Shown here: piece after piece, positions 7,212 to 44,215 of the stretch
How the letters are laid out: the number at the start of each line of letters is the position of its first letter
How positions within the stretch are numbered: position 1 is the first letter of the stretch
DNA from: an uncultured Clostridia bacterium
GTDB taxonomy: Bacteria; Bacillota; Clostridia; Christensenellales; Aristaeellaceae
NCBI GenBank assembly: GCA_945928315.1
Contig: CAMENN010000011.1
Location: 1-44,685, forward strand
Length of the DNA stretch: 44,685 nucleotides
Direction of reading: 5' to 3'
Translations under genes and position numbers: made by a program
The notes under the pieces: generated by a model
Databases searched by the model: none
What the model was told of the DNA's origin: nothing
The model's input: the letters and a program-made list of their open reading frames with translations, nothing else

Positions 7212-7225
7212 GACAGGCCTCCTTT

Positions 7226-7440
7226 CCGTTTCCAGACGCTCCGCCTCGCTTTTTCGCCCACAGGGCGCGCTCGGCTCCGGTCCCAAACCTGCTCAGTGGC
7301 GCGAGCCCAGGAAACTCACATAGTCGCGCCATGAATGGCGCTCCTCGCGATTCCCGACACTCCGTCCGCCTTCATCCGTCACAAGCGTCGGCAGGCTCCG
7401 GTCCCCTTGACCCCGCTTCGCTTCGCGCTGCATAAAGCAT
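7226..7440 (-). repeat. Nested-hairpin intergenic repeat, copy 1 (reverse, decayed)
   Basis: Read on the minus strand, it shows two partial modules of the family described in the findings. The hairpin module at 7310-7355 has inner stem GCGCCAT/ATGGCGC flanked by TAGTC and TCCT (GACTA and AGGA on the minus strand). Its outer arms no longer pair fully. A second truncated module runs into the M56 gene and supplies its ribosome binding site. Confidence 0.7.
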
Positions 7441-15726: not shown

Positions 15727-15800
15727 AACGGGCCATAAGCACGAAGCGAGGAAGGAGTCTGGGGGACCTCTTCCTCGCTTCGCGCCTATGGCCCGTTTTT
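15727..15800. terminator. Bidirectional terminator; minimal member of the nested-hairpin repeat family
   Basis: Outer arms AACGGGCCATA (15727-15737) and TATGGCCCGTT (15787-15797) enclose CGAAGCGAGGAAG (15742-15754) and CTTCCTCGCTTCG (15770-15782). T-runs follow on the plus strand. It lies between the convergent MBL and sdaAA genes. The arm sequences are those that bound the larger repeats elsewhere. Confidence 0.85.
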
Positions 15801-15812
15801 CTCAGAGCGGCA

Positions 15813-25614: not shown

Positions 25615-25895
25615 CTCAGATAAAAACGAGCTATAAGCGCGAAGCGAAGAAGGGGGCCGGGGACTGGTCCCCGGGCTAGGGGTGGGGGACCGGAACCCGC
25701 CGCCGCCAGTGGCGGATGAAGGCGGGTGGAGCGTCGGAAACGGAAAGGAGCGCTTGCGCGACTATTCCGTTTCCCGGTCTGAAATCCCCCAACGTCCCCA
25801 ATCGCGAAGCGATCAAAGAAAAAGCAGTCAGGGAGCGAAGCGATACCTGACGGGTTGTTTTCGCATAGTTCGGTTTGATTTGAGAGTAGTATAAA
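25615..25895 (+). repeat. Nested-hairpin intergenic repeat, copy 3
   Basis: It fills the gap of about 500 bp between 25447 and 25945, where no gene is seen. Outer arms AACGAGCTATAA and the reverse of ATAGTTCGGTTT bound it. Inside: stem CCCGCC/GGCGGG (25696-25701, 25721-25726) around CCGCC/GGCGG; the two-stem module 25736-25774 (outer GGAAACGGAA/TTCCGTTTCC, inner GCGC-TT-GCGC, loops AGGA and GACTA); ATCGCGAAGCGAT; and TCAGG/CCTGA. The short peptides it could encode are artefacts. Confidence 0.85.
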
Positions 25896-25910
25896 AGGGG
25901 AACAAAAAAA

Positions 25911-25926
25911 CCGCCCGTCCGGGCGG
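25911..25926 (+). promoter_or_regulatory. Hairpin just before the cystatin-like gene
   Basis: CCGCCCG, loop TC, CGGGCGG, preceded by seven A. It sits directly before the ribosome site (GGAAGGAGCAGGG). On the minus strand it would look like a terminator, but no minus-strand gene needs one here. Confidence 0.5.
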
Positions 25927-25945
25927 ATGGAAGGAGCAGGGACAC

Positions 25946-26287
25946 ATGACGAAACGGATTCTTGCGCTGGCCCTGGCGCTGACGCTGGGGCTTGCGGGCG
26001 CATCCGCACAGGCGTTGGTCGGCGCGTACGCGATTCCGGAAACCCCGGGCATCACGCAGGAGGCGCGCGCGGCGTTTGACGCGGCGACAGCGGAGCTTTG
26101 CGGCTGCACCTATGAGCTGGTGGCGCTTCTGGGCACGCAGGTCGTCGCGGGGACGAACTACCGCCTGCTGTGCACGGCGGCGTCCGTCATTCCGGACGCA
26201 CAGACCTCGTATGTGCTGATGACGGTGTATGCCGATCCGGACGGAAATGCGGAGATCACGGCGATAGACGGCATCAACGTGTTCTGA
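25946..26287 (+). CDS. Small secreted cystatin-like protein
   Basis: 113 aa: a signal peptide (about 1-23, ASAQA) and a single domain of about 90 residues. It carries GTQVVAGTNYRLL (63-75), which matches the first inhibitory loop of cystatins and stefins (QVVAG). The helix before it (ITQEARAAFDAATAEL), the two strands after it and the ending DGNAEITAIDGINVF fit the cystatin order. Cystatins block papain-like cysteine proteases. Three cysteines lie at about 52, 54 and 76. It is monocistronic with a terminator at 26325-26361. The fold call is from motif and order; inhibitory activity is inferred. NPU-like or other cystatin-fold carrier domains are alternatives. Confidence 0.72.
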   Translation: MTKRILALALALTLGLAGASAQALVGAYAIPETPGITQEARAAFDAATAELCGCTYELVALLGTQVVAGTNYRLLCTAASVIPDAQTSYVLMTVYADPDGNAEITAIDGINVF

Positions 26288-26324
26288 GGAGGCCCGGGAC
26301 GCGCAGGTCACACGAAGGGGACGG

Positions 26325-26361
26325 CGGGTTTGCTCTACTGTGCGGGGCAGGCCCGTTTTTT
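26325..26361 (+). terminator. Terminator of the cystatin-like gene
   Basis: CGGGTTTGC (26325-26333) pairs with GCAGGCCCG (26347-26355), two G-U pairs, then six T. Confidence 0.7.
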
Positions 26362-26381
26362 GCTGCCTCTTTGCGGCGGCT

Positions 26382-27131
26382 TCAGAGGGCTTCCCCCAGC
26401 TCGAGCGCTTCGCCCTCCCTGCAGATCTGCGTGAGCCGGCCGTCGGCGATGCGGTAGGCCTCGCCGTACAGCGTGGCGCGGCCGGCGTGCTGCTCGATGT
26501 AGCTGCCGTCCACCAGCGCGATGAACGCGCGGCCCATGCTGTCGGCATAGGTGATGTCCTCGTAGAGGCGGCGGCCGTCGAGCGTGAAGTGGCGCGCGCG
26601 CTGATAGTGCGGCAGGAGCATGAACCCCGTGAGGCCGAGTCCAGGGGCGAAGCGGACGAACGCCGGGTCGAGGGACTCGCCGGGCAGCTCCGGCTGGACG
26701 TAGACGGTGCGGGCACAGTTCATCGTGCCCGCGCTGATGCCCATGACGGTGCCGGTGAACTCGCGCAGCAGCGCGCGCAGGCCGAGCTGCTCAAAGAACG
26801 CGAGCTGCGTGGGCACATGCCCGCCCGCGAGGATGAGGAAGTCGGCGAGGGTGACGATGCGGGCGGCATCCCGCTCGTTGCGCGCGTCGATGAGGGTCAT
26901 GTCCCGCAGGGTCAGGCCGTGATAGGCGAGCGCCCCGGCGAAGGTCTGCGCCATTTCGTCGTTGAGGGCGGCGTTGCAGGGGTCGGCGCTGACGATGACG
27001 GCGCGGGAGTCGGGCTTCCAGCACGCGGCGAGGCGATCGACGAAGCCGTTGCGCGCATCGAGAATGCAGGGGAGGCAGACGCCCTGCGGGACGTTGTCGT
27101 CACAGGGGCTGCTGGTCAGGAAGAGGTGCAT
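26382..27131 (-). CDS. Peptidase S51 (peptidase E-like) family protein
   Basis: 249 aa with a class I amidotransferase-like fold. The nucleophile elbow is GISAGTMNC (Ser), preceded by LILAGGHVPTQLAFF, as in peptidase E and cyanophycinase relatives. Peptidase E cleaves Asp-X dipeptides; the exact substrate here is unknown. No signal peptide. The start (27131) has AAAGGAGG at 8-nt spacing. Convergent with the cystatin-like gene and flanked upstream by a large intergenic repeat. Confidence 0.85.
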   Translation of the reverse strand: MHLFLTSSPCDDNVPQGVCLPCILDARNGFVDRLAACWKPDSRAVIVSADPCNAALNDEMAQTFAGALAYHGLTLRDMTLIDARNERDAARIVTLADFLILAGGHVPTQLAFFEQLGLRALLREFTGTVMGISAGTMNCARTVYVQPELPGESLDPAFVRFAPGLGLTGFMLLPHYQRARHFTLDGRRLYEDITYADSMGRAFIALVDGSYIEQHAGRATLYGEAYRIADGRLTQICREGEALELGEAL

Positions 27132-27171
27132 GGGAGGTGCCTCCTTTATTCATATCTGTGTCAAACGCTTT

Positions 27172-27645
27172 TCTCGGACAGAAACGAGCCATAGGCGCGA
27201 AGCGAGGAAGGGGTCTGGGGACTAAGTCCCCAGGCAGGGTTTTAGGGGTGAAACCCCTGACGTCCCCCATCGCGAAGCGATCAAAGAAAAAGCAGTCAGG
27301 GAGCGAAGCGAGACCTGACGGGTTGTTTTTGCATGGCTCGTTTTGATTTGAGAGCAATAAATGAGTACTTTGCGAATCAGCCCCGTTTCAATCGCAGGCT
27401 GCTGCGCAGCCTGCGATTGAAACTACGTTTTCTTTGGAAATTTTGGGCTGCCGACCCGGGAAACGGAATAGTCGCGCAAGCGCTCCTTTCCGTTTCCAGA
27501 CGCTCCGCCTGCCTTCTCCGCCCACTGGGCGCGGCAGGCTCCGGTCCCAAACCTGCTTGGGGCGCCGCCCCAAACCCCGCAAGGGACTTCGCCCCTTGAC
27601 CCCACTACACTTCGCGCTTATGGCTCGCTTTTTTCTGAAATACCC
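27172..27645. repeat. Nested-hairpin intergenic repeat, copy 4 (two inverted halves)
   Basis: This gap of about 510 bp has no gene. The left half (27180-27350) reads in the same direction as copy 3 and is bounded by AAACGAGCCAT and ATGGCTCGTTT. The right half (about 27445-27640) is inverted; its module 27459-27497 is the exact reverse complement of the one in copy 3, and it carries stem CGCCC/GGGCG in place of CCGCC/GGCGG. Between the halves is the palindrome 27385-27423. Confidence 0.85.
27385..27423. repeat. Perfect 18-bp palindrome with a 3-nt loop
   Basis: Arm 27385-27402 begins GTTTCAATCGCAGG and arm 27406-27423 ends CCTGCGATTGAAAC; the loop is TGC. No T-run follows, so it is not a simple terminator. 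It is a single copy, with no spacer array, so it is not a CRISPR. Confidence 0.85.
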
Positions 27646-29436
27646 TTATTTTTCCTTCCCCAGCACCCGCCACAGCGTCGTGCGGCTGATGCCCAGCGCG
27701 CGGGCCGCGGCGGTCTGGTTGCCGCCGTGCGCGGCGACGCTCTGCTCGATCACCTCGCGCGTGATCTCCTCGAGCGTCCGCCCCTCGATGGCCACGCCCG
27801 ACTGCGGCGCCGCCGATGTGCCGCGCGTGATCGCCCGCTGCTTGGCCAGCAGCTCCGCCACCGCGCTCGAGCGGATGTAGGAGGAGGTCGCCAGCGTCGC
27901 CAGCTCGTGGAGCACCTGCTTGAACTGCGTGTAGTTGTGCGGCCAGTCGTACTGGCGCAGCAGCTCCACCGCGTGCGGATCAAAGCCGGAGATCTGCTTG
28001 TCCAGCTCCAGGTTCAGGCTGCCCAGGTACAGGCTCGCCAGCGAGGGAATCTCGTCCGAGCGGCTGCGCAGCGTCGGCAGGCGCAGCGCCAGACAGCCCA
28101 GCCGCGAGACGAACATCCGCCCCACCTCCGGCACCGGCGCGCCCTCCAGGCAGTTGCAGGAGAAGATCAGCCGCACGCGCTTGGTCATGCCCGTCTCCTG
28201 AATCAGCGAGAGCAGCTCGCTCTGCCGCGTGGCGGGCAGGTCCTCCAGGTGCTGGAAGTAGATCGTGCTGCCGCTGTCGTTGAGCGGGGAGGCGTGATGC
28301 CCCAGCAGATAGTCCCAGTTCTTGTCGTCCATCAGCGTGCAGTCCACCACCACCAGCGGGCTGTTGACCAGCGGCCCCCGCAGATAGATCGCCCGGGCGA
28401 TCTGCTCCTTGCCCGTGCCCGGCTCGCCGAAGATCATCACCGCCTGACGCGAGGCCGCGATGGGCGTCAGCCGCCCCTCCAGCTCGCCCATCGCCCCGGA
28501 GATGCTGTAGAAGCTGTTCATGAACAGGTGGTCGCATTCCTCCTTGCCCAGCGTGCGGATGCCCAGCCGGCCGGCGCGCAGCGGAATCTGCGTCGGGTGG
28601 CAGTGGAAGCAGAGCAGCCGCTCCCCCTCCACCTCCGCGGCCTGCGCGGTGACGCTGTGCAGCGCGCCCCGCGCGTTCAGGTAAAAGCGCAGCGGCGCGT
28701 GCCGCGGCACCTCCTTCACCCGCTGGCGCAGCGCGGCGAGCAGCTCCTCCGGCGGGTTCTCCGGCATGGAGAAGACCGTGCTCCCGTCCGCGCGCAGCGC
28801 GACGAGGATGCCCTCGTCCTGCCCGGTCATCTGCCGCAGCAGCAGGTTCTCCCGGCGCATCCGCCGGAAGCACGCGCCCTGAATCTGCGCCTGCGCCAGC
28901 GCGTCGTGCAGGCTCTCCGCGCCGGAGGTGATCAGAAACGCGTCAAAGCCCATTCGCCGGGCAACCGTGTGCGTCACCATGTCGCTGATGACCATGCGGT
29001 AGCCTTTCTCCTGAAGCGAGCGCAGCGTGCGTTCCACCTCCTGCGGCGCATGCACCGTCAGGATGTCGATGTCGTAGCGCAGCAGATCGCACAGGATGTG
29101 CGCCGGCTCCGTGATCGAGGGGAAGCCCACGATGGCGTAGAGGCTCGAGTAGTTCTGCGCCAGACGGATGCAGCGCAGCACGTCGTAGACCGAGGTCTGG
29201 ATCTCCACGACCGGCAGGTTCGTCACCCGGCGGATCATCTCCGCCGTGCCGCCGCGCGAGAGGATCGCATCGTAATCTCCCGGCGGGCTGCGGCGCACGA
29301 TTGCCACGCCCTCCTCCAGGTCGCCGGTCTGCACATCGACGCGCAGGCCGGGATACGCCTCCGCGGCGCGCTCGATGGCCGTCCTGAGGCTCTCGAAGGG
29401 GGCGATGCCCAGCACGCGGACAATGGACTCTTCCAT
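27646..29436 (-). CDS. PrpR-type regulator with degenerate AAA+ domain
   Basis: 596 aa from ATG 29436 (AGGAG 11 nt upstream). Residues of about 5-190 are a PrpR N-terminal sensor domain. About 310-520 is a sigma-54-activator-type AAA+ domain, and 553-596 a Fis-type helix-turn-helix (GGNQTAAARALGISRTTLWRVL). Walker A is intact (GEPGTGKEQ, about 337-345). The Walker B position reads TIYFQHLEDLP instead of a hydrophobic run ending DE, and the GAFTGA loop that touches sigma-54 is absent. It therefore probably does not remodel sigma-54 and acts as an ordinary DNA-binding regulator. It is divergent from the acid-sugar operon, its likely target. Confidence 0.85.
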   Translation of the reverse strand: MEESIVRVLGIAPFESLRTAIERAAEAYPGLRVDVQTGDLEEGVAIVRRSPPGDYDAILSRGGTAEMIRRVTNLPVVEIQTSVYDVLRCIRLAQNYSSLYAIVGFPSITEPAHILCDLLRYDIDILTVHAPQEVERTLRSLQEKGYRMVISDMVTHTVARRMGFDAFLITSGAESLHDALAQAQIQGACFRRMRRENLLLRQMTGQDEGILVALRADGSTVFSMPENPPEELLAALRQRVKEVPRHAPLRFYLNARGALHSVTAQAAEVEGERLLCFHCHPTQIPLRAGRLGIRTLGKEECDHLFMNSFYSISGAMGELEGRLTPIAASRQAVMIFGEPGTGKEQIARAIYLRGPLVNSPLVVVDCTLMDDKNWDYLLGHHASPLNDSGSTIYFQHLEDLPATRQSELLSLIQETGMTKRVRLIFSCNCLEGAPVPEVGRMFVSRLGCLALRLPTLRSRSDEIPSLASLYLGSLNLELDKQISGFDPHAVELLRQYDWPHNYTQFKQVLHELATLATSSYIRSSAVAELLAKQRAITRGTSAAPQSGVAIEGRTLEEITREVIEQSVAAHGGNQTAAARALGISRTTLWRVLGKEK

Positions 29437-29540
29437 GCAAAATCCGACTCCTTTTTTGTTCCTTCGGGCAAGCGGTCTGTTCCCTTTTGAAATGGCATCA
29501 TACAGAACAGGGGTTTTGGATTCGTTCATCTGCGTTGATT

Positions 29541-29647
29541 GTATCACATTGGAACTGATTTGTACCGCAAAACCCGAGAATAGTTTCATATTGAAACGCT
29601 TTTCCAAAGAAATTTGAGGAAAAATGGAGAATGTTCCGAATTGAAAC
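29541..29647. promoter_or_regulatory. Three related operator-like palindromes in the divergent region
   Basis: GTTTCA-TAT-TGAAAC (29583-29597) is a perfect palindrome. GTTCCG-AAT-TGAAAC (29633-29647) and GTATCA-CAT-TGGAAC (29541-29555) are imperfect copies, each matching 11-12 of 15 positions. Starts are 42 and 50 bp apart. The leftmost site overlaps the TACAAT -10 box of the regulator gene (29546-29541, minus strand), which fits autoregulation. Confidence 0.6.
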
Positions 29648-29743
29648 GAAAAAGAGCGGACTTCCTGCTGTTTTTTGCGTCAGAAATTTGTACAATAGGG
29701 CCATGAAATCACGGCGGGTATCGCCTCAGAGAGGGGACGGACG

Positions 29744-31021
29744 ATGATCAGGCTTTTCATTATCGCGGACGACTTTACCGGAGCGCTGGATACGGGCGTG
29801 CAGCTGGCCGCCCAGGGCGCATGCACCCGGGTCATCACCAATCCCGCCGCCGACCTCTCCGCCGTCGCCCCGGAGGTGGAGGTGCTCGTGCTGGACGCGG
29901 AGACGCGCCACCTGAGCGCCGCACAGGCCGCCGGCATCGTCGGCAGCGCCGTGCGCCAGGCCGTGCGCCTGGGCGTTCCCTACATCTATAAGAAGACCGA
30001 CTCCGCGCTGCGCGGCAACATCGGCGCGGAGCTGACCGCGGTGCTGCGCGAGAGCGGGCGCAGCCAGCTGCCCTTCCTGCCGGCCTTCCCGCAGATCGGC
30101 CGGCGCACGCAGGGCGGCGTGCACTACATCGGCGACACGCCCGTGGCCGAGAGCGTCTTCGGGCAGGACCCGTTCGAGCCGGTGACGCGCTCCTGCGTCG
30201 CGGAGCTCATCGCCCAGCAGAGCGACGTACCCGTCCGCAGCCTCCCCGCCCCCGCGGACGCGGACGGCCTGTGCGCGGAGCCGGGCATCGTCGTCTACGA
30301 CGCCGCAGCCCAGGAGGAGCTCGAGCGCGCCGGCAGGCTGCTCATGCAGGCGGATGCGCTGCATGTGATGGCGGGCTGCGCGGGCTTTGGCGCGGTGCTG
30401 CCCCAGCTGCTGGGGCTGGGGGCACACGGCCGCAGGAGGATGCCGCAGCTTGACGAGCGGCTGCTGGTCCTCTGCGGCAGCGTGAACCCCATCACCCTCG
30501 CGCAGCTGGACGCCGCGCAGCAAAGCGGCTTCGCCCGCCTGCGCATGACCCCCGCCCAGAAGCTCACGCCCGACTACTTCGCCTCGCCCGAGGGCCTTGC
30601 CCAGATCGAGGCCTGGAAGCAGACGCTGCACGCGTGCGACGCCTGCATCATCGACGCGAACGACGAGGGCGGCAACGAGCCGACCGCCGCCTACGCGAAG
30701 GCACACGGCCTGACCATCGAGGACCTGCGGCAGGGCATCTCCGGCGCGCTGGGCCTGATCATGAAGGGGCTGTTCGACTGCCCGGACCTGGGCACGCTGC
30801 TCATCACCGGCGGCGACACGCTGCTCCAGTGCATGAACCGCATCGGCATCGACGAGATGGAGCCCATCGGCGAGCTGTACGCCGGCGTGGTGCTCTCCCG
30901 CTTCACGCTGGGCGGGCACAGCCGGTTCGTCATCTCCAAGTCCGGCGGCTTCGGCGAGCCGACGCTGCTGTGCGATCTGCTTTCCCTGATCCGCGGCGCG
31001 GAAAAGAAGCCCGCGGACTGA
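29744..31021 (+). CDS. Four-carbon acid-sugar kinase (DUF1537, OtnK/DtnK-like)
   Basis: 425 aa. The N-terminal motif IADDFTGALDTGVQLA and C-terminal motif LLITGGDTLLQCMNRIGI are hallmarks of the DUF1537 kinase family, which phosphorylates threonate, erythronate or related acids at C4. With a PdxA2-type dehydrogenase, as encoded downstream, the established route runs acid to 4-phospho-acid to dihydroxyacetone phosphate plus CO2. The start ATG 29744 has AGAGGGG at about 8-nt spacing. It is first in the acid-sugar operon, about 300 bp from the divergent PrpR-like gene. TACAAT at 29692-29697 may be its -10. The exact substrate cannot be read from sequence. Confidence 0.9.
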   Translation: MIRLFIIADDFTGALDTGVQLAAQGACTRVITNPAADLSAVAPEVEVLVLDAETRHLSAAQAAGIVGSAVRQAVRLGVPYIYKKTDSALRGNIGAELTAVLRESGRSQLPFLPAFPQIGRRTQGGVHYIGDTPVAESVFGQDPFEPVTRSCVAELIAQQSDVPVRSLPAPADADGLCAEPGIVVYDAAAQEELERAGRLLMQADALHVMAGCAGFGAVLPQLLGLGAHGRRRMPQLDERLLVLCGSVNPITLAQLDAAQQSGFARLRMTPAQKLTPDYFASPEGLAQIEAWKQTLHACDACIIDANDEGGNEPTAAYAKAHGLTIEDLRQGISGALGLIMKGLFDCPDLGTLLITGGDTLLQCMNRIGIDEMEPIGELYAGVVLSRFTLGGHSRFVISKSGGFGEPTLLCDLLSLIRGAEKKPAD

Positions 31022-31042
31022 ACACATAAGGAGGATTTCACC

Positions 31043-32203
31043 ATGGCCTATGCGAAGCTTCCGGGCCTGACCCCGGACGGACGGCTCTATGAAAACGAGG
31101 AGATGGGCACCGTCGAGGCCCGTCTGCCCGACGGCGGCTATCCCACCGCCCACGCGCCCGCGCTGCTGGAGCTGCCGAATGGCGACATGCTCTGCTGCTG
31201 GTTCGCCGGCACCTACGAGGGCAGCGCCGACATCCGCATCATCTGCTCCCGCCTCGAGAGGGACGGCGACCGCTGGAGCAAACCGGTGGACATCTCCGGC
31301 GACCCGACCCGCAGCGAGCAGAACCCCTCCCTGTTCTACGGCCCGGACGACGCCGTGTGGGCGATCTACACCGCGCAGCTTGACCGCCAGGCCGGCAAGG
31401 ACAACATGCAGTTCACCTCCCAGATCCGCTGCCAGAAGAGCACCGACGGCGGCAGGACCTGGGGCCCGTATGAGACGCTCTTCGCCCGCGAGGGCAGCTT
31501 CTGCCGCCAGCCGATTCAGGTGCTCGCAAACGGCCGCTGGATCTTCGGCAACTGGCTGTGCACCGATTCCGTGGACGGCCTCTCCGGCGACCCCACCGCC
31601 TTCCAGATCAGCGACGATCAGGGCAAAACGTGGCGTCAGGTCGATATGCCGAACAGCCGCGGCCGCGTGCACGCCAACGTCGTGGAGATGGACGACGGCC
31701 ACCTGCTTGCCTTCATGCGCAGCCGCGAGGCCGACTTCATCTACCGCAGCGAGTCCTTCGACTGGGGCGACACCTGGAGCGAGCCGAAGCCCACGCCGCT
31801 GCCCAACAACAACTCGAGCATCAGCGCCCTGCGCCTGCAGAGCGGCCGCGTGGCCATCGCCTACAACCCGACCTGCACGCCCGACCCCAAGCCGGGCAAG
31901 GCGGCCTGGCCGGGCCTGCGCTGCCCGGTGGCCGTGGCGCTCTCCGAGGACGGCGGCCTCACCTTCCCGATCGTGCGCTGGATGGAGCGCGGCGAGGGCT
32001 ACATGGGCGAGGAAAACCGCACCAACAACAAGCAGTATGAGTATCCCTACCTGATGCAGAGCCGCGACGGCATGCTGCACCTGGCCTATGCCGCCTTCAC
32101 CCGTCTGGGCGTCAAGTACGTCCGCTTCAGCGAGCAGGACGTGCTGGGCAAAAAGCGCGAGCGCGTGGGCCTGTACAACCCCACCGCCGCACAGAGCCGG
32201 TAA
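31043..32203 (+). CDS. Cytosolic sialidase-fold (BNR/Asp-box) protein
   Basis: 386 aa with four Asp-box motifs (STDGGRTWG, SDDQGKTWR, SFDWGDTWS, SEDGGLTFP), the mark of a six-bladed propeller. No signal peptide is present, unlike secreted sialidases. N-terminal YPTAHAPALLELPNGD fits the BNR_2 family. It starts 22 bp after the kinase with AAGGAGG upstream. Proteins of this family appear in acid-sugar and uronate loci, where they may act as hydrolases or lyases on an imported glycoside. True sialic-acid cleavage is not supported here: no NanA, NanK or NanE is seen. Confidence 0.8.
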   Translation: MAYAKLPGLTPDGRLYENEEMGTVEARLPDGGYPTAHAPALLELPNGDMLCCWFAGTYEGSADIRIICSRLERDGDRWSKPVDISGDPTRSEQNPSLFYGPDDAVWAIYTAQLDRQAGKDNMQFTSQIRCQKSTDGGRTWGPYETLFAREGSFCRQPIQVLANGRWIFGNWLCTDSVDGLSGDPTAFQISDDQGKTWRQVDMPNSRGRVHANVVEMDDGHLLAFMRSREADFIYRSESFDWGDTWSEPKPTPLPNNNSSISALRLQSGRVAIAYNPTCTPDPKPGKAAWPGLRCPVAVALSEDGGLTFPIVRWMERGEGYMGEENRTNNKQYEYPYLMQSRDGMLHLAYAAFTRLGVKYVRFSEQDVLGKKRERVGLYNPTAAQSR

Positions 32204-32213
32204 TTCCCGGCGA

Positions 32214-32320
32214 GGATTTTGGGGCGGCTGCCCCAAGCCCTGCCCGGGGCGCTGCCCCGGACCCCGCAAGGGGCTTAGCCCCTTGACCCTTCCTCGCTTC
32301 GCGCTGCTTTAAGCCTCTTT
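32214..32320 (+). repeat. GC-rich intergenic repeat, copy 5, inside the acid-sugar operon
   Basis: It consists of short stems (GGGGC-GGCT-GCCCC, CGGGGC-GCT-GCCCCG, AAGGGGC-TTA-GCCCCTT) and ends with the family arm TTCCTCGCTTCGCGC. It lacks the AGGA/GACTA module. It may cause partial termination between the sialidase-fold and ADH genes. Confidence 0.7.
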
Positions 32321-32347
32321 ACATCATAGAAAAGGAAGTCGATTGCC

Positions 32348-33514
32348 ATGCTTACCCAGTACAGCATCAAGATGCCGCACGCGGTCTACGGCGGCGAGAA
32401 CGCCATGGACAACGTGACCGAAATCCTCAAAAAGAACGGCGTCAAGAAGGTCGCCATGTTCACCGACAAGGGCATCGAGGGCTGCGGCCTGTTCGCCCTG
32501 CCGGAGGAGGCCGTCAAGGCCAGCGGCGCGGAATACTACGTCCTCGATGAGCTGCCGCCCGAGCCCAGCTACATGGCCGTGCAGAAGCTCGTCGATGAGT
32601 TCAAGGCCAGCGGCGCGGACATGATCGTCGCCTGCGGCGGCGGCAGCGTCATGGACGCGGCGAAGCTCGCCAGCGTGCTCGTCACCGACGCGTACGGCGT
32701 CAAGGAGCTCCTCGACAACCCCGGCATGGCGAAGAAGTGCGTGCCGATCATCCTCATCCCGACGACGGCGGGCACCGGCGCCGAGGTCACGCCCAACGCC
32801 ATCGTCGCCGTGCCGGAGCGCGAGCTGAAGGTCGGCATCGTCAACGAGAACATGATCGCGGACTACGTCATCCTCGACGCCCGCCTGATCAAGAACCTGC
32901 CCAAGAAGATCGCCGCGGCGACCGGCGTGGACGCGCTGGCGCACGCCATCGAGTGCTACACCAGCAACAAGGCGAACCCGTTCTCCGACACCTTCGCGCT
33001 CGAGGCCCTCGACCTGATCCTGGAGAACATCGTGCCGGCCTGCGAGGACAGCACCGCGATGGAGGCCAAGAACAAGATGCAGATCGCGGCGTACTACGGC
33101 GGTCTGGCGATCACGGCCTCGGGCACGACGGCGGTGCACGCGCTGTCCTACCCGCTGGGCGGCAAGTACCACATCGCGCACGGCGTCTCCAACGCGATCC
33201 TGCTCGTGCCGGTGATGAAGTTCAACCAGGGCGATCCGGCGTTCTGCGCGCGGCTGGCCGCGGCGTATGACCGCTGCTGCCACGACGGCAGCGCCTGCCG
33301 GACCGTCGAGGAGAAGGCGGCGTGGCTGGTGAACAGGATGGACGCGATCGTCCGCCGTCTGGAGATTCCGACGAGCCTGCAGTCCTTCGGCGTGCCGAAG
33401 GAGGACCTCGAGGGGCTGGTCGCCGCGGGCATGCAGGTCACGCGCCTGCTGGTCAACAACATGCGCCCGCTGACCGCCGACGACGCCCGCAGCATCTATC
33501 TGGAGATCATGTAA
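32348..33514 (+). CDS. Iron-containing alcohol dehydrogenase family protein
   Basis: 388 aa, group III. Residues of about 93-100 hold the NAD(P)-binding GGGSVMDAAK motif. Metal ligands are supplied by DYVILDARL, GVDALAHAIECY and the two histidines in HALSYPLGGKYHIAHG. In this cluster it probably oxidises or reduces a hydroxyl/keto acid or an aldehyde from the acid-sugar pathway; the step is unknown. The ribosome site AAAGGAAG is weaker than those of its neighbours. Flanked on both sides by intergenic repeats, so it may be expressed at a different level from the rest. Confidence 0.9.
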   Translation: MLTQYSIKMPHAVYGGENAMDNVTEILKKNGVKKVAMFTDKGIEGCGLFALPEEAVKASGAEYYVLDELPPEPSYMAVQKLVDEFKASGADMIVACGGGSVMDAAKLASVLVTDAYGVKELLDNPGMAKKCVPIILIPTTAGTGAEVTPNAIVAVPERELKVGIVNENMIADYVILDARLIKNLPKKIAAATGVDALAHAIECYTSNKANPFSDTFALEALDLILENIVPACEDSTAMEAKNKMQIAAYYGGLAITASGTTAVHALSYPLGGKYHIAHGVSNAILLVPVMKFNQGDPAFCARLAAAYDRCCHDGSACRTVEEKAAWLVNRMDAIVRRLEIPTSLQSFGVPKEDLEGLVAAGMQVTRLLVNNMRPLTADDARSIYLEIM

Positions 33515-33535
33515 CACTGTTTCCGAATAGAAGCA

Positions 33536-33795
33536 GATAAGTGCTAAGCCCCGTCAGGTAACGCTTCGCTCCCTGACTACGCTTTCCTGGATCGCTTCGC
33601 GATGTAGGAACGTTGGGGGATTTCATCCCCCAAACCCCTAGCCTGGGACCGGAGCCTGCCGCCGCCAGTGGCGGATGAAGGCAGGCGGAGCGTCGGAAAT
33701 CGCAAGGAGTGCCGCTTGCGGCACGACTATGCGAGTTTCCCGGGTCCCCCAGACTCCTTCTTCGCTTCGCGCTTATAGCTCGTTTCTATTCAGAA
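33536..33795 (+). repeat. Nested-hairpin intergenic repeat, copy 6
   Basis: It fills the 336-bp gap between the ADH and DapA-like genes. Outer arms GAATAGAA...ATAAGTGC and the reverse of GCGCTTATAGCTCGTTTCTATTC bound it in two parts. Module 33695-33740: outer GGAAATCGCA/TGCGAGTTTCC, inner GTGCCGC-TT-GCGGCAC, loops AGGA and GACTA. Upstream are the TCAGG/CCTGA stem, ATCGCTTCGCGAT, and CCTGCC/GGCAGG around CCGCC/GGCGG. Confidence 0.85.
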
Positions 33796-33850
33796 AATTG
33801 TATGGAGCTGTATCTAAAATCTCTCATATATACCCGAAAGGAGATCTCTC

Positions 33851-34759
33851 ATGAAGAACGTCGCCATCCGAGGCATCATCCCTCCGATTCTCACCCCGAT
33901 GAACGAGGATGAGAGCATCAACGTCGCGGAGCTGCGCAATCAGGTCAACCGCATGATCGAAGCCGGCTGCCATGCACTCTTCCCGTTCGGCACCAACGGC
34001 GAGGGCTACATCCTCTCCGGCGAGGAGAAGAAGCTCGTGCTCGAGACCGTCGTCGAGGAGACCAACGGCCGCGTCCCGGTCTATGCCGGCACGGGCTGCA
34101 TCTCCACCCGCGAGACCATCGCCCAGAGCAAAATGGCCCGCGACATCGGCGCCGACGTGCTCTCCATCATTACGCCGAGCTTCGCCGCAGCCAGCCAGAA
34201 TGAGCTCTACGACCATTACAAGGCCGTCGCCGAGGCCGTCGACATGCCCATCGTGCTCTACAACATCCCGGCCCGCACCGGCAACGCCATCGCCCCGGCG
34301 ACCGTCGGAAAGCTCGCGCAGATCGAGAACATCGTCGGCGCGAAGGACTCCAGCGGCAACTTCGCCAACATCCTCGGCTACATCGACGCTGGCAGGGGCA
34401 AGCAGAACGGCGATTTCGCCACCCTCTCCGGCAACGATCAGCTGATCATCTGGACGCTGCTGGCGGGCGGCACCGGCGGCATCGCGGGCTGCGCCAACGT
34501 CTATCCGCACACCATGGCCTCCATCTACGACCTGTTCATGGCCGGCAGGATTGAGGAGGCGAAGGCCGCCAACGCGAGCATCCAGAGCTTCCGCGCCTGC
34601 TTCAAGTACGGCAACCCCAACACCATCGTCAAGACCGCTGTCGCCCTGCTGGGCTACAACGTCGGCAAGTGCCGCGCGCCGTTCAACCAGGTGCCGGAGG
34701 AGGGCATCGAGGCCCTCAGGAAGGTCCTCGCGGAGAACGCCGCCAAGGGCATGTGCTAA
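33851..34759 (+). CDS. DapA-family aldolase/lyase
   Basis: 302 aa TIM-barrel protein of the dihydrodipicolinate synthase/N-acetylneuraminate lyase superfamily. It has FPFGTNGEGY near 45, the Tyr in LYNIPARTG and the Schiff-base lysine in IVGAKDSSG. Strong AAAGGAG site. It lies next to a PdxA-like gene, with 12 bp between them, so a role in 2-keto-acid or acid-sugar breakdown is more likely than lysine synthesis. Substrate specificity is not visible. Confidence 0.9.
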   Translation: MKNVAIRGIIPPILTPMNEDESINVAELRNQVNRMIEAGCHALFPFGTNGEGYILSGEEKKLVLETVVEETNGRVPVYAGTGCISTRETIAQSKMARDIGADVLSIITPSFAAASQNELYDHYKAVAEAVDMPIVLYNIPARTGNAIAPATVGKLAQIENIVGAKDSSGNFANILGYIDAGRGKQNGDFATLSGNDQLIIWTLLAGGTGGIAGCANVYPHTMASIYDLFMAGRIEEAKAANASIQSFRACFKYGNPNTIVKTAVALLGYNVGKCRAPFNQVPEEGIEALRKVLAENAAKGMC

Positions 34760-34771
34760 GGAGGAATCACC

Positions 34772-35821
34772 ATGAGTGAGAAAATGACCATCGGCATCAC
34801 GATGGGCGATCCGGCCAGCATCGGCCCGGAGATCACCGTCAAGGCGCTCGCCAACCGCTCCGTCTATGAGGCCTGCAATCCCGTCGTCATCGGTGACGCC
34901 AACGTGATGGAGGCCGCGACGAAGATCGTCGGCCGCGAGGACATCAAAATCCGCGCGATCGATGCCGTCTCCGAGGCGAAGTACGAGTTCGGCACCATCG
35001 ACGTGCTCGACATGAAGCTCGTGGACATCGACAAACTCGAGCGCGGCAAGGTCTCCGTGATGGCGGGCGACGCGGCCTTCCAGTATGTGAAGCGCGTCAT
35101 CGAGCTGGCCAACGCCGGCGAGATCGACGGCACCGTGACCAACGCCTTCAACAAGGAGGCCGTCAACCTCGCGGGCCATCACTACTCCGGACACACCGAG
35201 ATCTACGCCGAGATGACCGGCACCAAGAAGTACACCATGCTGCTCGCGCACGAGAACCTACGCGTCGTGCATGTTTCCACCCACTGCTCCCTGCGCGACG
35301 CCTGCGACCGCGTGAAGAAGGACCGCGTGCTGGAGGTCATCCGCATCGCCAACCAGGCGTGCCTCGACCTGGGCATCGAGAAGCCGCGCGTCGGCGTGGC
35401 GGGTCTCAACCCGCACAGCGGCGAGAACGGCCTGTTCGGCCGCGAGGAGATCGAGGAGATCATCCCCGCCATCGAGGCCGCCCGCAGCGAGGGCATCACC
35501 GTGGACGGCCCCGTGCCGCCCGACACCATCTTCTCCAAGGCCCGCGGCGGCTGGTATGACATCGTCGTGGCGATGTACCACGATCAGGGCCATATCCCGC
35601 TCAAGGTGATCGGCTTCGTGTACAACCAGGCCGAGAAGAAGTGGGACGCCGTCGCCGGCGTCAACATCACGCTGGGTCTGCCGATCGTTCGCGCCTCGGT
35701 GGACCACGGCACCGCCTTCGACCAGGCGGGCCTGGGCGTGGCCAATGAATTGAGCTTGATGAATGCGATCGACTATGGCATTCGTTTAGCAAAGAGCAAC
35801 AAGACCAGAAGGACCAAGTGA
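34772..35821 (+). CDS. PdxA2-type 4-phospho-acid-sugar dehydrogenase
   Basis: 349 aa, PdxA fold. It has the N-terminal ITMGDPASIGPEI, the metal and substrate motifs GLNPHSGENGLFG and AMYHDQGHIP, and SVDHGTAFD. PdxA makes a B6 precursor, but the PdxA2 branch found beside DUF1537 kinases oxidises and decarboxylates 4-phospho-D-threonate or -erythronate to dihydroxyacetone phosphate. The kinase is in the same operon and no other B6 genes are present, which favours PdxA2. AAGGAGG precedes the start. Its stop lies 15 bp before the TRAP binding-protein start. Confidence 0.9.
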   Translation: MSEKMTIGITMGDPASIGPEITVKALANRSVYEACNPVVIGDANVMEAATKIVGREDIKIRAIDAVSEAKYEFGTIDVLDMKLVDIDKLERGKVSVMAGDAAFQYVKRVIELANAGEIDGTVTNAFNKEAVNLAGHHYSGHTEIYAEMTGTKKYTMLLAHENLRVVHVSTHCSLRDACDRVKKDRVLEVIRIANQACLDLGIEKPRVGVAGLNPHSGENGLFGREEIEEIIPAIEAARSEGITVDGPVPPDTIFSKARGGWYDIVVAMYHDQGHIPLKVIGFVYNQAEKKWDAVAGVNITLGLPIVRASVDHGTAFDQAGLGVANELSLMNAIDYGIRLAKSNKTRRTK

Positions 35822-35835
35822 AGGAGGACACAACC

Positions 35836-36834
35836 ATGAAGAAGCTCATTACCCTCGTTCTCGCCGCGGCGATGATCCTCACCGCAGTCTCCGCGTTCGC
35901 GCTCAGCGCGGACCTCACCTTCGGCACCCAGGAGACCGGCACCGCCGGCTACACCTACGCCACCGCCATCCAGTCCGTCATCCAGAAGATCGACGGCATC
36001 CAGGTCAGCCTGACCACCAACTCCTCCGGCAACGTCAGCTCCCCGGTGCTCATCCAGAATGAGGACGCGGACCTGACCATGAGCAACTCCGCTCCGGCGC
36101 TCTGGGCCAAGACCACCGGCATCGCCTCCGCGAGCGTTCCGGTCTGCCCGGACATCGCCTGCATCGCCGGCGGCCTGGGCAACGACTTCATCAACGTGAT
36201 GTTCACCCAGAAGTTCGTCGATGAGACGGGCATCACCACCGTCGAGGAGCTGGTCGAGAAGAAGTACCCGGTCAAGCTCGTCATCAAGAAGCCGGGCTCC
36301 TTCGGCGAGCTGGCGGCTGAGAAGGTGCTCGAGGTGCTCGGTGTCACCTTCGAGGACATCAAGGCCTGGGGCGGCGTGGTCGAGATGACCGGCGGCGCGC
36401 AGATCAAGGACGGCCTGCAGGACGACCTCTACGACATGACCATCGACCACATCGGCGCGGGCCAGGCCAACACCACCGAGCTGTGCATCAACCACGCGAT
36501 GTACGACGTGCAGCTGGGCGAGGAGACCATGGCGAAGCTGTGCGAGCTGGGCTATGACTATGTGACCGTACCGGCCAACACCTGGAACGGCCAGACCGAG
36601 GAGATCAAGACCGTCGGCTCCCAGCAGTGCATCCTCGTGTCCACCAGCATGGACGAGGAGGTCGCCTACGCGATCACCAAGGCCCTGTGCGAGAACAAGG
36701 ACGCCCTGAAGGAGGCCTCCGCGGCTCTGGGCTACTTCAATCCGGAAGTTGCCGGCTCCAAGGCGCTCACCGGCTGCGACCTGCATCCGGGCGCGGCGCG
36801 CTACTATCAGGAGATGGGCTACGCCTTCGAGTAA
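35836..36834 (+). CDS. TAXI-family TRAP transporter solute-binding protein
   Basis: 332 aa with a signal peptide (about 1-23) and no clear lipobox. The mature start LTFGTQETGTAGYTYATAI is the TAXI-family entry. These proteins bind organic acids and deliver them to a fused membrane protein. The start ATG 35836 has AAGGAGG at 9-nt spacing. Position after kinase and PdxA2 genes suggests the operon's acid sugar as ligand. Confidence 0.92.
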   Translation: MKKLITLVLAAAMILTAVSAFALSADLTFGTQETGTAGYTYATAIQSVIQKIDGIQVSLTTNSSGNVSSPVLIQNEDADLTMSNSAPALWAKTTGIASASVPVCPDIACIAGGLGNDFINVMFTQKFVDETGITTVEELVEKKYPVKLVIKKPGSFGELAAEKVLEVLGVTFEDIKAWGGVVEMTGGAQIKDGLQDDLYDMTIDHIGAGQANTTELCINHAMYDVQLGEETMAKLCELGYDYVTVPANTWNGQTEEIKTVGSQQCILVSTSMDEEVAYAITKALCENKDALKEASAALGYFNPEVAGSKALTGCDLHPGAARYYQEMGYAFE

Positions 36835-36859
36835 TCCGGGCGCAGTCTGACAGCGGACC

Positions 36860-36931
36860 GGGGCGCGCGAGCGCGCGCCCCTCTCCCGCCTTTGTCAGGG
36901 GAAGGGAAAGAGCCGTGAGCGTCACGGCTCT
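36860..36931 (+). repeat. Two strong stem-loops between TRAP genes
   Basis: GGGGCGCGC-GAGC-GCGCGCCCC (36860-36881) and AGAGCCGTGA-GCG-TCACGGCTCT (36909-36931), both perfect and without T-runs. They sit between the binding-protein and membrane-protein genes and probably set unequal mRNA levels. Confidence 0.75.
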
Positions 36932-37025
36932 ATCCGTTCTCCTGAGCCGCATTCAGCTTTCTTTGCACCGATAAAACCGTGAACGAGCAACCCCTCAGAT
37001 CTGACTGAAAGGGAGAGGCCTGATC

Positions 37026-39035
37026 ATGTCAAAACAACTTCGCAAGACCTGTACGATTGCGCTGACGATAGCGTTCTTCGTATTCCAGATGTATCTTGCC
37101 CTGGTCAAGCAGCTGACCATCATGCTCCAGACGCCGCTGCACATGTGCTTCGCGCTGGCGCTGGTGTTCCTGTACAACCCGATTGACAAGGGCTACCAGA
37201 AGAAGCTCAAGAAGAAGGCCGCCGAGCAGGGCAGGACCCCGACCGACGCGGAGCTTAACAAGTGGGCGAAGCTGCGCGTCATCGACATCGCGTTCTTCGT
37301 CGGCATCGCCTTTGTCGTGTTCTACACGATCACCAACGTCGAGCGCCTGCGCGGCTTTGACAAGGTCGTCTCGCAGGTGCTGACGATCGACTACGTCGCG
37401 ATGGCCGTCATCATCGTGCTGCTGCTGGAGGCTGTCCGCCGCACGCTGGGCAACATCCTCTTCGGCTTCATCATCGTGTTCATCATCTACGCGTGGACGG
37501 CGAAGTACTTCCCGAAGAGCTGGGTGCTCTACACCAAGGGCAAGTCCTTCCCGAAGATGCTGCGCCAGTTCTGCGCCGGCATGACGCTCACCGAGAGCGG
37601 CGTTTACGGCACCCCGCTGACCACCTCCTGCACGAGCCTGTTCTACTTCATCGTGTTCGGCGCGTTCTTCTCGGAGTGCGGCGGCGGCCAGCTGCTCATT
37701 GACGTCGGCCTCAAGTTCTCCAACAAGTCCTCCGGCGGCCCGGCGAAGGCCGCGGTCATCTCCTCCGGCCTGATGGGCATGGTCTCCGGCTCCGCCGTGG
37801 CGAACGTCGCCACCACCGGCGTCATGACCATCCCGATGATGAAGAAGATCGGCTACGAGCCCGAGGAGGCCGGCGCCATTGAGGCGGTCGCCTCCACCGG
37901 CGGCCAGATCATGCCCCCGATCATGGGCGTCGGCGCGTTCATCATGGCCGAAATGCTCGGCGTGAACTACCTGAGCGTCGCGGCCTCCGCGATCATCCCG
38001 GCCGTGGCGTACTACTTCGGCGTGTTCGTGCTGGTCACCTACCTGGCCAAGAAGCGCGCCAGCCGCGCCGGCGGCAGCGAGGATGCCAAGATCGCCGTCG
38101 CCAAGCCGCTGCTGCCGCGCCTGTATCTGCTCATCCCGGTCGTCGTGCTGATCATTTCGATCATGAACGGCAACTCTCTGATGCGCTCCGGCATGTACGG
38201 CATCTTCACCTGCCTGGCCTGCAACGTCGCCAGCTTCTTCATCGGCGGCGGCAAGAAGACCGACTGGAAAAAGGATCTGGTCAACGGCATCGAGGACGGC
38301 AGCTTTGCGGGCCTCAAGCAGATGTGGGGCTGCTGCATGGCGGGCGCGAAGTCCGCGGCGGAGATCGCCATCCCGACGGCGGCCTGCGGCATCATCATCG
38401 ACGTCATGACCGAGCAGACCTCCCTGGCGACGAACCTCTCCGGCGTCATCGCCTCCCTGGGCATGACCAACCTGTTCGCGGCGATGCTCATCGCCATGGT
38501 CGGCTGCATGCTGCTGGGCATGGCCCTGCCGACGGTTGCGGCCTATCTGGTCGGCGTCACGCTGTTCGTGCCGACGCTGCGTCAGCTGGGCATCAGCCCG
38601 CTGGTCGCCAACATGTTCGTGTTCTACTACGGCATCATGGCCCAGATCACCCCGCCGGTCTGCGTGGCCTCGTACACGGCCGCAGGCATTGCGGACGGCG
38701 ATGCGATGAAGACCGGCCTCAAGGGCATGCTCTTCGCGCTGGTCGGCTTCCTGGTTCCGTTCGTGTTCGTGTACAATCCGGCGATCCTGCTGGAGGGCAC
38801 GATGCTGCAGACGGTCATCGGCGCAGCGCAGCTGCTGGTGGGCACGTTCTTCCTGGCGGTCACGGTTGCGGGTTACTTCAAGACGGCGATGCCCAAGTGG
38901 ATGCGCGCGCTGACGTTCGTGGTGGCGCTGGGCTTCATCTCTCCGGATGTCGTCTCCACCATCGCGGCGCTCGTGGGCGGCGTGGTCATGCTGTTCCTCA
39001 ACTTTGAAATGGCCAGGAAGGCGCAGAAGGCGTAA
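37026..39035 (+). CDS. TRAP transporter fused membrane subunit
   Basis: 669 aa with about 16-18 membrane helices: a small-subunit (DctQ-like) N-terminal part of about 170 residues fused to a DctM-like part, as is normal for TAXI systems. Conserved segments include GMVSGSAVANVATTGVMTIP, STGGQIMPPIMG and FYYGIMAQITPPVC. TRAP systems use ion gradients to import organic acids. Ribosome site AGGGAGAGG. Last gene of the acid-sugar operon; a repeat element follows. Confidence 0.93.
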   Translation: MSKQLRKTCTIALTIAFFVFQMYLALVKQLTIMLQTPLHMCFALALVFLYNPIDKGYQKKLKKKAAEQGRTPTDAELNKWAKLRVIDIAFFVGIAFVVFYTITNVERLRGFDKVVSQVLTIDYVAMAVIIVLLLEAVRRTLGNILFGFIIVFIIYAWTAKYFPKSWVLYTKGKSFPKMLRQFCAGMTLTESGVYGTPLTTSCTSLFYFIVFGAFFSECGGGQLLIDVGLKFSNKSSGGPAKAAVISSGLMGMVSGSAVANVATTGVMTIPMMKKIGYEPEEAGAIEAVASTGGQIMPPIMGVGAFIMAEMLGVNYLSVAASAIIPAVAYYFGVFVLVTYLAKKRASRAGGSEDAKIAVAKPLLPRLYLLIPVVVLIISIMNGNSLMRSGMYGIFTCLACNVASFFIGGGKKTDWKKDLVNGIEDGSFAGLKQMWGCCMAGAKSAAEIAIPTAACGIIIDVMTEQTSLATNLSGVIASLGMTNLFAAMLIAMVGCMLLGMALPTVAAYLVGVTLFVPTLRQLGISPLVANMFVFYYGIMAQITPPVCVASYTAAGIADGDAMKTGLKGMLFALVGFLVPFVFVYNPAILLEGTMLQTVIGAAQLLVGTFFLAVTVAGYFKTAMPKWMRALTFVVALGFISPDVVSTIAALVGGVVMLFLNFEMARKAQKA

Positions 39036-39059
39036 ACGCGCGAATTCTCCGGAAACAAT

Positions 39060-39336
39060 GGGGCTGTCAGGCTCAGAATCCAAACATTCCAAGCAAAAAC
39101 TAAGAGGGTTTGCGCCCGAAGGTTTCCAAAGGGGCCGGAGCCTGCCGCCGCCAGTGGCGGGAGCAGGCAGGCGGAGCGTCGGAATTGCAAAAGAGCAGCA
39201 TGCTGCGACTATTGCAATTCCCGGACCGATCGGAAAGCCCTTTGGCGGGGCGTTGGGGCAGAGCCCCAAGCTCCCAAAGCCAATCATTCTTAGAAAAGTT
39301 GCTTTATGGACTGTTCATGATTCGCCTGACAGCCCC
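39060..39336 (+). repeat. Nested-hairpin intergenic repeat, copy 7, with terminal inverted repeats
   Basis: Ends GGGGCTGTCAGGC (39060-39072) and GCCTGACAGCCCC (39324-39336) are perfect 13-bp inverted repeats, each followed on the inside by GAATC. Inside: CCTGCC/GGCAGG around CCGCC/GGCGG, then module 39181-39221 (outer GGAATTGCAA/TTGCAATTCC, inner GCAGCATGCTGC, loops AAGA and GACTA). It carries no gene and fills the gap before the MATE gene. Confidence 0.85.
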
Positions 39337-43741: not shown

Positions 43742-43769
43742 AAAGAAGTCCCTGCGCGGGACGGTATTT

Positions 43770-43945
43770 GGAGCGGTATCGAAGCGGTCATAACAGGCGC
43801 GAAATCGTGAATCCCTCGCGGAACACGGCTGCGGGAAAACCCTGACGCCGCAAGGCTTTGCGGGCAGCTAAGGCTCGAATTGAATAATCTGTTCTCTCCT
43901 GTTGTTCTCTCCGATTTCCCGGGGAGTGCGGCAGAGGAACTATAC
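43770..43945 (+). repeat. Tandem tRNA-Ser 5'-half cassette, unit 1
   Basis: It starts GGAGCGGTATCGAAGCGG, a tRNA-Ser 5' half, loses part of the anticodon stem (AACAGGCGCGAAATC), and then continues with a non-tRNA sequence of about 140 bp containing CCGCAA-GGCT-TTGCGG. Nearly identical to unit 2 except for the shorter and diverged tRNA part. Not a functional tRNA. Confidence 0.85.
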
Positions 43946-44126
43946 GGAGTGGTATCGAAGCGGTCATAACGGGGCAGACTCGAAATCGTGAATCCCTCGC
44001 GGAACACGGCTGCGGGAAAATCCTGACGCCGCAAGGCTTTGCGGGCAGCAAAGGCTCGAATTGAATAACCTGTTCTCTCCTGTTGTTCTCTCCGATTTCC
44101 CGGGGAGTGCGGCAGAGGATATATAC
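43946..44126 (+). repeat. Tandem tRNA-Ser 5'-half cassette, unit 2
   Basis: Its first 41 bases are identical to the intact tRNA-Ser gene, through CTCGAAATC in the anticodon loop and stem, then switch to GTGAATCCCTCGCGG. The switch point inside the anticodon arm is what a tyrosine-recombinase crossover would leave. The remainder matches unit 1 closely. Confidence 0.88.
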
Positions 44127-44215
44127 GGAGTGGTATCGAAGCGGTCATAACGGGGCAGACTCGAAATCTGTTGGCCCTTCCGGGTCCGTGGGTTCGAATC
44201 CCACCCACTCCGCCA
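44127..44215 (+). tRNA. tRNA-Ser (anticodon CGA)
   Basis: 89 nt, class II. Acceptor GGAGTGG pairs with CCACTCC, anticodon stem GCAGA/TCTGT encloses loop CTCGAAA (anticodon CGA), a long variable arm follows (TGGCCC-TTCC-GGGTCC), then the T-arm GTGGG-TTCGAAT-CCCAC, discriminator G and an encoded CCA. Two truncated copies lie directly upstream, and an integrase gene faces its 3' end. Confidence 0.95.

Follow-up and report, generated by a model that had tools for sequence, protein, structure and literature searches.

A two-hairpin repeat in the genome of an uncultured Clostridia bacterium, probably a non-autonomous mobile DNA element

A stretch of 44,685 nucleotides from the genome of an uncultured Clostridia bacterium of the family Aristaeellaceae (GenBank assembly GCA_945928315.1, contig CAMENN010000011.1, positions 1 to 44,685, the window hereinafter) harbors six copies, one of them truncated, of a gene-less DNA element of about 91-98 bp that consists of two adjacent hairpins, H1 and H2. 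In this genus, the element is probably a non-autonomous mobile DNA hairpin that inserts into the loops of other hairpins, and our best reading is that it represents a new family that behaves like the repetitive extragenic palindromes (REPs) or the IS200/IS605-type elements, membership in IS200/IS605 itself being unproven. The copies in the window, with their matches to a covariance model, are the following.

25687..25777, + strand: element copy; H1 25688-25735, H2 25736-25774; match of 98.8 bits; included in alignment A1
27454..27545, - strand: element copy; H1 27499-27546, H2 27459-27497; match 27456-27547, 93.2 bits; bounded by exact paralogous empty sites GGTTTGGG^CGGCAGCCCAAAA (context E)
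33646..33743, + strand: element copy; H1 33647-33694, H2 33695-33740; match of 122.3 bits, joint best in the genome
39134..39226, + strand: element copy; H2 39181-39221; match 39132-39224; exact paralogous empty site with CCAAAGGG on the left and CGATCGGAAAGCCCTTTGG on the right (context F)
7307..7404, - strand: element copy; H1 7356-7403, H2 7310-7355; match of 90.5 bits; three G·T pairs in the outer stem of H2
7160..7283, - strand: sixth, truncated copy that adjoins the 7307..7404 copy; H1 kept, H2 cut after AAAGGAGG; match of 49.7 bits

An initial annotation of this DNA described five two-stem modules with a common plan (outer stem, AGGA or AAGA, inner stem, GACTA, outer stem), and inspection of the sequence found all five in place and built as described. 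The module is real, and yet it is only half of the unit, namely H2 of an approximately 98-nt element in which H1 lies directly 5'; both H1 and the host hairpins discussed below had been missed. In the alignment of 35 copies (A1), H1 consists of an outer stem (GAC-C/G-C-GTC), a GGA/GGA internal loop, a 7-bp stem and a 5-bp tip with the loop NGT and with ATGAA or a variant of it on the 3' side of H1, and H2 comprises a 10-bp outer stem, AGGA/GACTA and an inner stem of 4-7 bp. A better reading of AGGA/GACTA, supposedly a constant loop, is that it forms an A-T pair and a G-C pair, with a tandem G·A and a single bulged A left over; unaided, RNAalifold extended H2 by these A-T and G-C pairs and recovered the H1 outer stem with covarying pairs. 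By eye, a G-C pair replaces the A-T pair in the relative locus L183, and both pairs are broken in L174 and L179 (CAGAG/CGACAA). A frequent variant of H1, with GA/GA in place of TG/CA, is found in 23 of 87 rows from the own genome. At the H1/H2 junction, three of the four bases of a CGTC sequence are part of the H1 outer stem, where they are paired and covarying, and the sequence is altered in relatives; the ends of the element, by eye, have only CCGG in common. The module at 7310-7355, originally considered decayed, retains its stems, though with the three G·T pairs in its outer stem.

The inference of selection on structure from constant loops and covarying stems is supported by shuffle tests, by RNAalifold and by an order-wide alignment. 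In A1, a plain MAFFT alignment, two-sided changes were detected at 18 of the 32 named pairs, and 95.2% of the cells paired compared to 83.5% after shuffling, with none of the 500 shuffles as high in either case; in the control with slid partners, 34-47% of the cells paired. The number of further pair types, one of five measures, did not exceed that in the shuffles (294/500). Pair counts from the alignments A2, A3 and A5 are biased in favour of the model structure, to which these alignments had been fitted. Among 38 distinct order-level rows, two-sided changes were present at 27 of 31 pairs (1/500 shuffles as high), and the covariation score was 0.576 versus 0.142 for shuffled rows (0/500), with the slid controls yielding 0.06-0.11; for this alignment, the slid controls matter most because the shuffles ignore relatedness and the alignment is model-fitted. 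The copies are not limited to exact duplicates, 93 of the 107 aligned own rows being distinct, and the covariation among them is strong. The stretch 33640-33755 had a fold z-score of -2.8 as DNA and -3.4 as RNA.

A BLAST search of the own genome with the window segment 33640-33750 produced 53 matches, the longest of which spans all 111 bases. The covariance model built from the copies (R1) had 125 matches at E<=0.01, many more than expected by chance, with 150 of the 3,376 candidates scored; the weakest matches are fragments, and the 20 weakest were excluded from the analyses of placement, nesting, host stems and empty sites. With genes called by a home-made, codon-model open reading frame (ORF) caller seeded with Pfam-confirmed ORFs, 99 of the 105 placed copies fall between genes, and the remaining 6 overlap with called ORFs. 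Among the 75 copies for which both neighbours were called, 25 are in convergent, 49 in tandem and 1 in divergent gaps, and in the tandem gaps the element has the orientation of the genes in 30 cases and the opposite one in 19. In six orthologous gaps from four contigs (three at C36 and one each at C56, C106 and C32), relatives with 75-89% nucleotide identity keep the flanking genes without the block that carries the element; at the C56 gap, the relative L066 carries a different block. The syntenic pairs L144 and L145 with C11, L141/C151, L139/C81 and L129/C135 were left out of this comparison. Orthologues of DHDPS, employed as an empty-site probe, were found in only four other genomes at E<=1e-80, with 55-67% identity.

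The ends of the insertions could be examined in seven contexts that were picked by eye after inspection of the copies, with 99 of the 105 copies used for the flanks. Exact paralogous empty sites were identified in three of these contexts, which cover two of the window copies. Context D (CAAGGGG^CACTGCCCCTTG) is represented by two empty and two filled sites, the insert running from A-CCG to CGG-AT; context E by three empty sites and two filled with units that end in CGG-GT, among them the window copy 27545-27454, whose H1 begins with the final G of the target run; and context F (CCAAAGGG^CGATCGGAAAGCCCTTTGG) by one empty and two filled sites, including the window copy 39134-39226. In all three, the element was inserted after GGG, with neither duplication nor loss of the target. 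More generally, 97 of 99 copies have a G as the base directly 5' to the aligned element, and the position of the cut within the G-run is ambiguous.

For about half of the copies, the target itself appears to be a hairpin. The flanks form a host stem of at least 6 bp around 51 of 104 copies, compared to a mean of 15.7 and a maximum of 30 in 500 flank shuffles, and the host stems also covary. Copies are nested as well, with one element splitting the H1 tip of another, exactly, by eye, in the case of C16 (GTGGG^CGATG), and in the relative L136, three copies are arranged head to tail with a 98-bp period, the last one decayed. The host structures recognized in the window are the following.

39126..39133, + strand: left arm CCAAAGGG of the host hairpin, an 8-bp stem around the 39134..39226 copy
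39238..39245, + strand: right arm CCCTTTGG of the same hairpin, pairing with 39126..39133
25620..25860, no strand assigned: composite host-hairpin block around the 25687..25777 copy, with GCGCGAAGCGAAG..., GGGGGA/TCCCCC, ATCGCGAAGCGAT and GTCAGGGAGCGAAGCGATACCTGAC; repeats D4, D7, I2 and I7
33545..33789, no strand assigned: composite block of the same type around the 33646..33743 copy; repeats I2, I4, I7 and I8

Elsewhere in the genome, blocks like 25620..25860 are absent at the orthologous gaps of relatives. The segment 33520-33810 has a fold z-score of -5.4. The host blocks (25620-25860, 27183-27360, 33545-33789 and 15727-15807) comprise a modular hairpin repeat that is rich in GCGAAGC, an unusually stable DNA mini-hairpin, and that occurs both with and without the element. 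As a separate observation, in the truncated copy (window 7160-7286, minus strand), the AAAGGAGG end is 6 nt upstream of an ATG (7211-7209), so its AGGAG strand resembles the ribosome-binding site of a Peptidase_M56 (BlaR1-like) frame; two adjacent frames, 6810-7286 and 5577-6791, match halves of the Peptidase_M56 family.

The initial annotation left open whether the module is a structured RNA or a DNA hairpin. The DNA hairpin is favoured. Among the 2,801 stem cells of 87 own rows (of the 93 distinct ones), 44 are G·T and 32 are A·C, and the distinct pair-type events number 23 and 19, respectively; in the order alignment, the counts are 22 and 30. Such near parity is expected of decaying DNA copies and favours DNA over a working RNA. 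For comparison, 17 tRNAs from the fetched loci have 15 G·T and no A·C among 367 cells, the tRNA finder itself favouring pairs. DNA is further favoured because the element is found in either orientation to genes and is present in one species but absent in another at the six compared gaps, and because of the exact insertions without target duplication, the nesting and the tandem arrays. One strand is set apart by the conserved G·A loops, as would fit a single DNA strand that folds, though this is an argument and not a proof.

Because the insertions are oriented, follow a G-run and lack target duplication, and because the unit has two hairpins and hairpin targets, we infer single-strand transposition akin to that of IS200/IS605. 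Under this scheme, the strand with the G·A loops would fold into the adjacent H1 and H2 once it becomes single-stranded in replication or repair; an enzyme supplied in trans would recognize the folded strand by its shape, that is, by the internal loops and the tip; the strand would then be cut at the ends of the element and joined into the loop, itself single-stranded, of a different hairpin; and most copies would afterwards decay as passengers near the 3' ends of genes.

Several observations weigh against this interpretation. No consistently present enzyme was found among the Y1, reverse transcriptase (RVT_1) and IS110 families searched in the 29 genus genomes. In particular, genome G021, which is 94% complete and has at least 34 copies, lacks all three, even if the incompleteness of metagenome-assembled genomes (MAGs) could hide some; the own genome retains only a 31-residue piece of Y1 with a stop; and an R1 search of 10 of the 12 fetched Y1 loci (L151-L160) found no element. 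The covariance model scan yielded no match in 8 of the 29 genus genomes. Four of the seven insertion contexts are inexact, with the parental loop not known in B, B2 and C and one base ambiguous in A, and one C is missing from most of the insertions nested in GTGGCGGATG parents. Finally, two mispair counts lean the other way, namely, the relatives' alignment A3, with 39 G·T and 17 A·C, and the first count on the own copies, which included a closing stem that was later dropped (65 and 31).

Among the alternatives, the one that fares best, though it is less likely than not, is that the element specifically belongs to the IS200/IS605 or REP type and is moved by a Y1 (HUH) transposase that is present or was recently lost. 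The lack of target duplication, the short fixed 5' target, the two hairpins and the hairpin targets all fit this possibility, as do the Y1 matches in 16 of the 29 genus genomes (own included) and the fragment kept in the own genome. By contrast, eight genomes with at least 15 element matches, most of them incomplete MAGs, have no Y1 (G010, G011, G017, G018, G021, G025, G026 and G028), none of the 10 searched Y1 loci carries the element, and there is no GTAG tag. The presence of Y1 is inconsistent across the 29 genomes, as is that of RVT_1 (9 genomes) and IS110 (7 genomes), and all three were rejected as cognate enzymes. An arrangement of the type of REP-associated tyrosine transposases, with repeats beside the Y1 gene, was found at 0 of the 10 searched Y1 loci, the genes that flank the elements having had no systematic scan.

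The resemblance to known repeats is partial. In what the cited accounts give of REPs and the related REPINs and BIMEs, these are high-copy intergenic palindromes with stem variants and with paired and clustered copies, like the element (PMC3733652, PMC8266576, PMC3116915), and the CGTC REPs are reported without a dedicated transposase (PMC3733652). Unlike a REP, there described as a single palindrome of 20-40 bp, the element is about 98 bp long, with two hairpins and conserved G·A internal loops, and unlike the GTAG/CGTC REPs of those accounts, it has no unpaired tetranucleotide tag and is lodged in the loops of other hairpins. Thus, it lacks two defining features of the tagged REPs, the single palindrome and the unpaired tag, and assignment to the CGTC REPs was rejected because the element is not a single palindrome and its CGTC is mostly paired in the H1 outer stem. 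The IS200/IS605 elements and the miniature inverted-repeat transposable elements (MITEs) derived from them, as far as the consulted descriptions go, similarly have hairpins near both ends and insert in one orientation 3' of a short target (PMC6006769, PMC5934647), and the lack of target duplication at a fixed short 5' target in contexts D, E and F is likewise as in such MITEs. Unlike IS200/IS605, the element has no gene, its hairpins make up nearly the whole unit, and Y1 is inconsistent in the host genomes; no Y1-encoding autonomous copy with shared ends was met, 0 of the 10 searched Y1 loci having an R1 match. A MITE of the terminal inverted repeat type was rejected, given that contexts D, E and F show no target duplication and that the ends share only CCGG by eye. 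The BOX and ERIC repeats and the nested small dispersed repeats of cyanobacteria are modular, nested, gene-less intergenic hairpins as well; the element differs from them in sequence and plan, in its order-wide structural conservation and in its tRNA-linked relatives. Among the top-ranked titles of the open-access literature, no description of the element was met, and the earlier remark that no named family with this motif was known agrees with the Rfam scans, in which the window and 28 distinct relative loci had no family match on the element.

The searches of relatives that had been proposed as a check produced matches across the order and the class. In the genus scan, with 34 candidates scored per genome, 21 of the 29 genomes had a match, own included, G006 and G012 with one weak match each. 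A second model with relatives added (R2) matched at least 38 of 396 genomes and at least 21 of 142 genera of the order, own included, and at least 7 of the 391 genomes of a class sample were matched, own included, the other six being outside the order. The order and class counts are lower bounds because at most 10 candidates per genome were scored, with stricter filters; the groups scanned had themselves supplied the members on which R1 and R2 are based. A strict pattern retrieved 22 named stretches, all of them from MAGs of Clostridia or Clostridiales, of which some came from the rectum of water deer. Plasmids had no match to the element, and viral contigs had 0 exact matches to one strict pattern; a 'phage' search gave two matches of 27-29 nt, on faecal 'bacteriophage' records with a weak two-hairpin unit (22-25 bits). 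These two records are read as bacterial because the unit adjoins bacterial-type genes (pseudouridine synthase, M23, phosphorylase or FtsX-type). Other repeats were observed among these sequences: each unit of an approximately 202-bp tandem repeat at L095:11880-12300 has one element, with TGCANCATTGTACTTGGCTAGGT-like flanks, and TGCANCATTGTACTTGGCTAGGT-like sequence is also present at C66 and, partly, in L068; C36 (about 7645-7680) and L066:1796-1878 have a further hairpin, GAATCGCAGCGGAGCCGAAGGCGACTATTGCGATTC, that resembles H2 alone, and in L066 an H2-like hairpin is located inside GAATCGCAGCGGAGCCGAAGGCGACTATTGCGATTC-like sequence.

Some distant Clostridia have one or a few units that adjoin tRNA genes, and these may be an older form. 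A tRNA T-loop motif (GTTCRANYC) is located within 75 nt 3' of the element at 7 of 39 order and class loci versus 9 of 1,826 background windows, and intact tRNA genes (Val-GAC, Val-CAC, Asn-GTT, Ser-GCT and Met-CAT) are upstream of the unit in L084, L177, L188, L195, L209, L210, L212 and L214. On inspection, the unit sits between the tRNA and a piece of the tRNA 3' end, and its 5' strand is partly complementary to the T-arm or anticodon region of that tRNA; in L212, the unit is found twice in tandem. Flank stems of at least 8 bp were detected at 15 of the 39 loci versus a mean of 3.9 and a maximum of 8 in 100 shuffles, some of them terminator-like and not tRNA-derived. Among the 10 proteins scanned, there is no common neighbour gene. 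The tRNA-linked arrangement may be ancestral, may reflect integration into a target or may be a byproduct. In a wider and rather doubtful scenario, the element would be class-wide gene-less mobile DNA, with the two-hairpin shape, not the sequence, as the substrate of an uncharacterised enzyme, and would derive from a unit linked to tRNA 3' ends, with a strand complementary to its tRNA target, that in some genera escaped and multiplied in hairpin loops. Beside the element in L188, L189, L195, L084, L177, L183, L209, L210, L212 and L214, T-arm or anticodon segments of tRNAs occur as inverted copies, mostly downstream of the tRNA gene. In the window, two tandem 181-bp repeats (43765-44215) hold the 5' part of tRNA-Ser, upstream of an intact tRNA-Ser(CGA) gene.

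An unlikely possibility is that the element is a structured RNA, either a small RNA or a cis-element, whose conservation reflects a function of its own. Internal loops with tandem G·A and GAA/GAA are motifs common in RNA, and their conservation here, the strong covariation, the G·T excess in A3 (39 versus 17) and two human-faecal contigs in which a weakly matching unit precedes likely start codons by some 40-60 nt are all compatible with an RNA role. Nevertheless, there is no clear G·U excess in the own copies or order-wide (22 versus 30), the orientation to genes is mixed, and the matches exceed 100, are nested and are absent at the compared gaps in relatives; furthermore, the scanned genes beside the faecal units and the tRNA-linked loci have no common function, and Rfam has no match.

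It seems still harder to maintain that the blocks grow by replication errors at hairpins, through template switching or fold-back synthesis, without an enzyme that recognizes the unit. Such a process could account for the host hairpins, the apparent loop replacement in some contexts, the nested growth and the inverted tRNA pieces within the tRNA-linked units, but hardly for a constant unit with fixed ends that was inserted exactly in three unrelated hairpins or for conserved loops in scattered genomes across the order. That the host maintains the copies as transcription terminators or as stabilisers of mRNA 3' ends, which their position after genes and rarity in divergent gaps might suggest, is very improbable given that no T-run is found 3' of H2 among the own and genus copies listed, that either orientation occurs and that they are absent at the compared orthologous gaps.

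About a hundred copies of the element shape the intergenic regions of this uncultured gut bacterium. The family offers exact empty sites, a defined unit of about 98 nt and a shape-coded substrate, and so makes the spread of small palindromic repeats without a known transposase testable.

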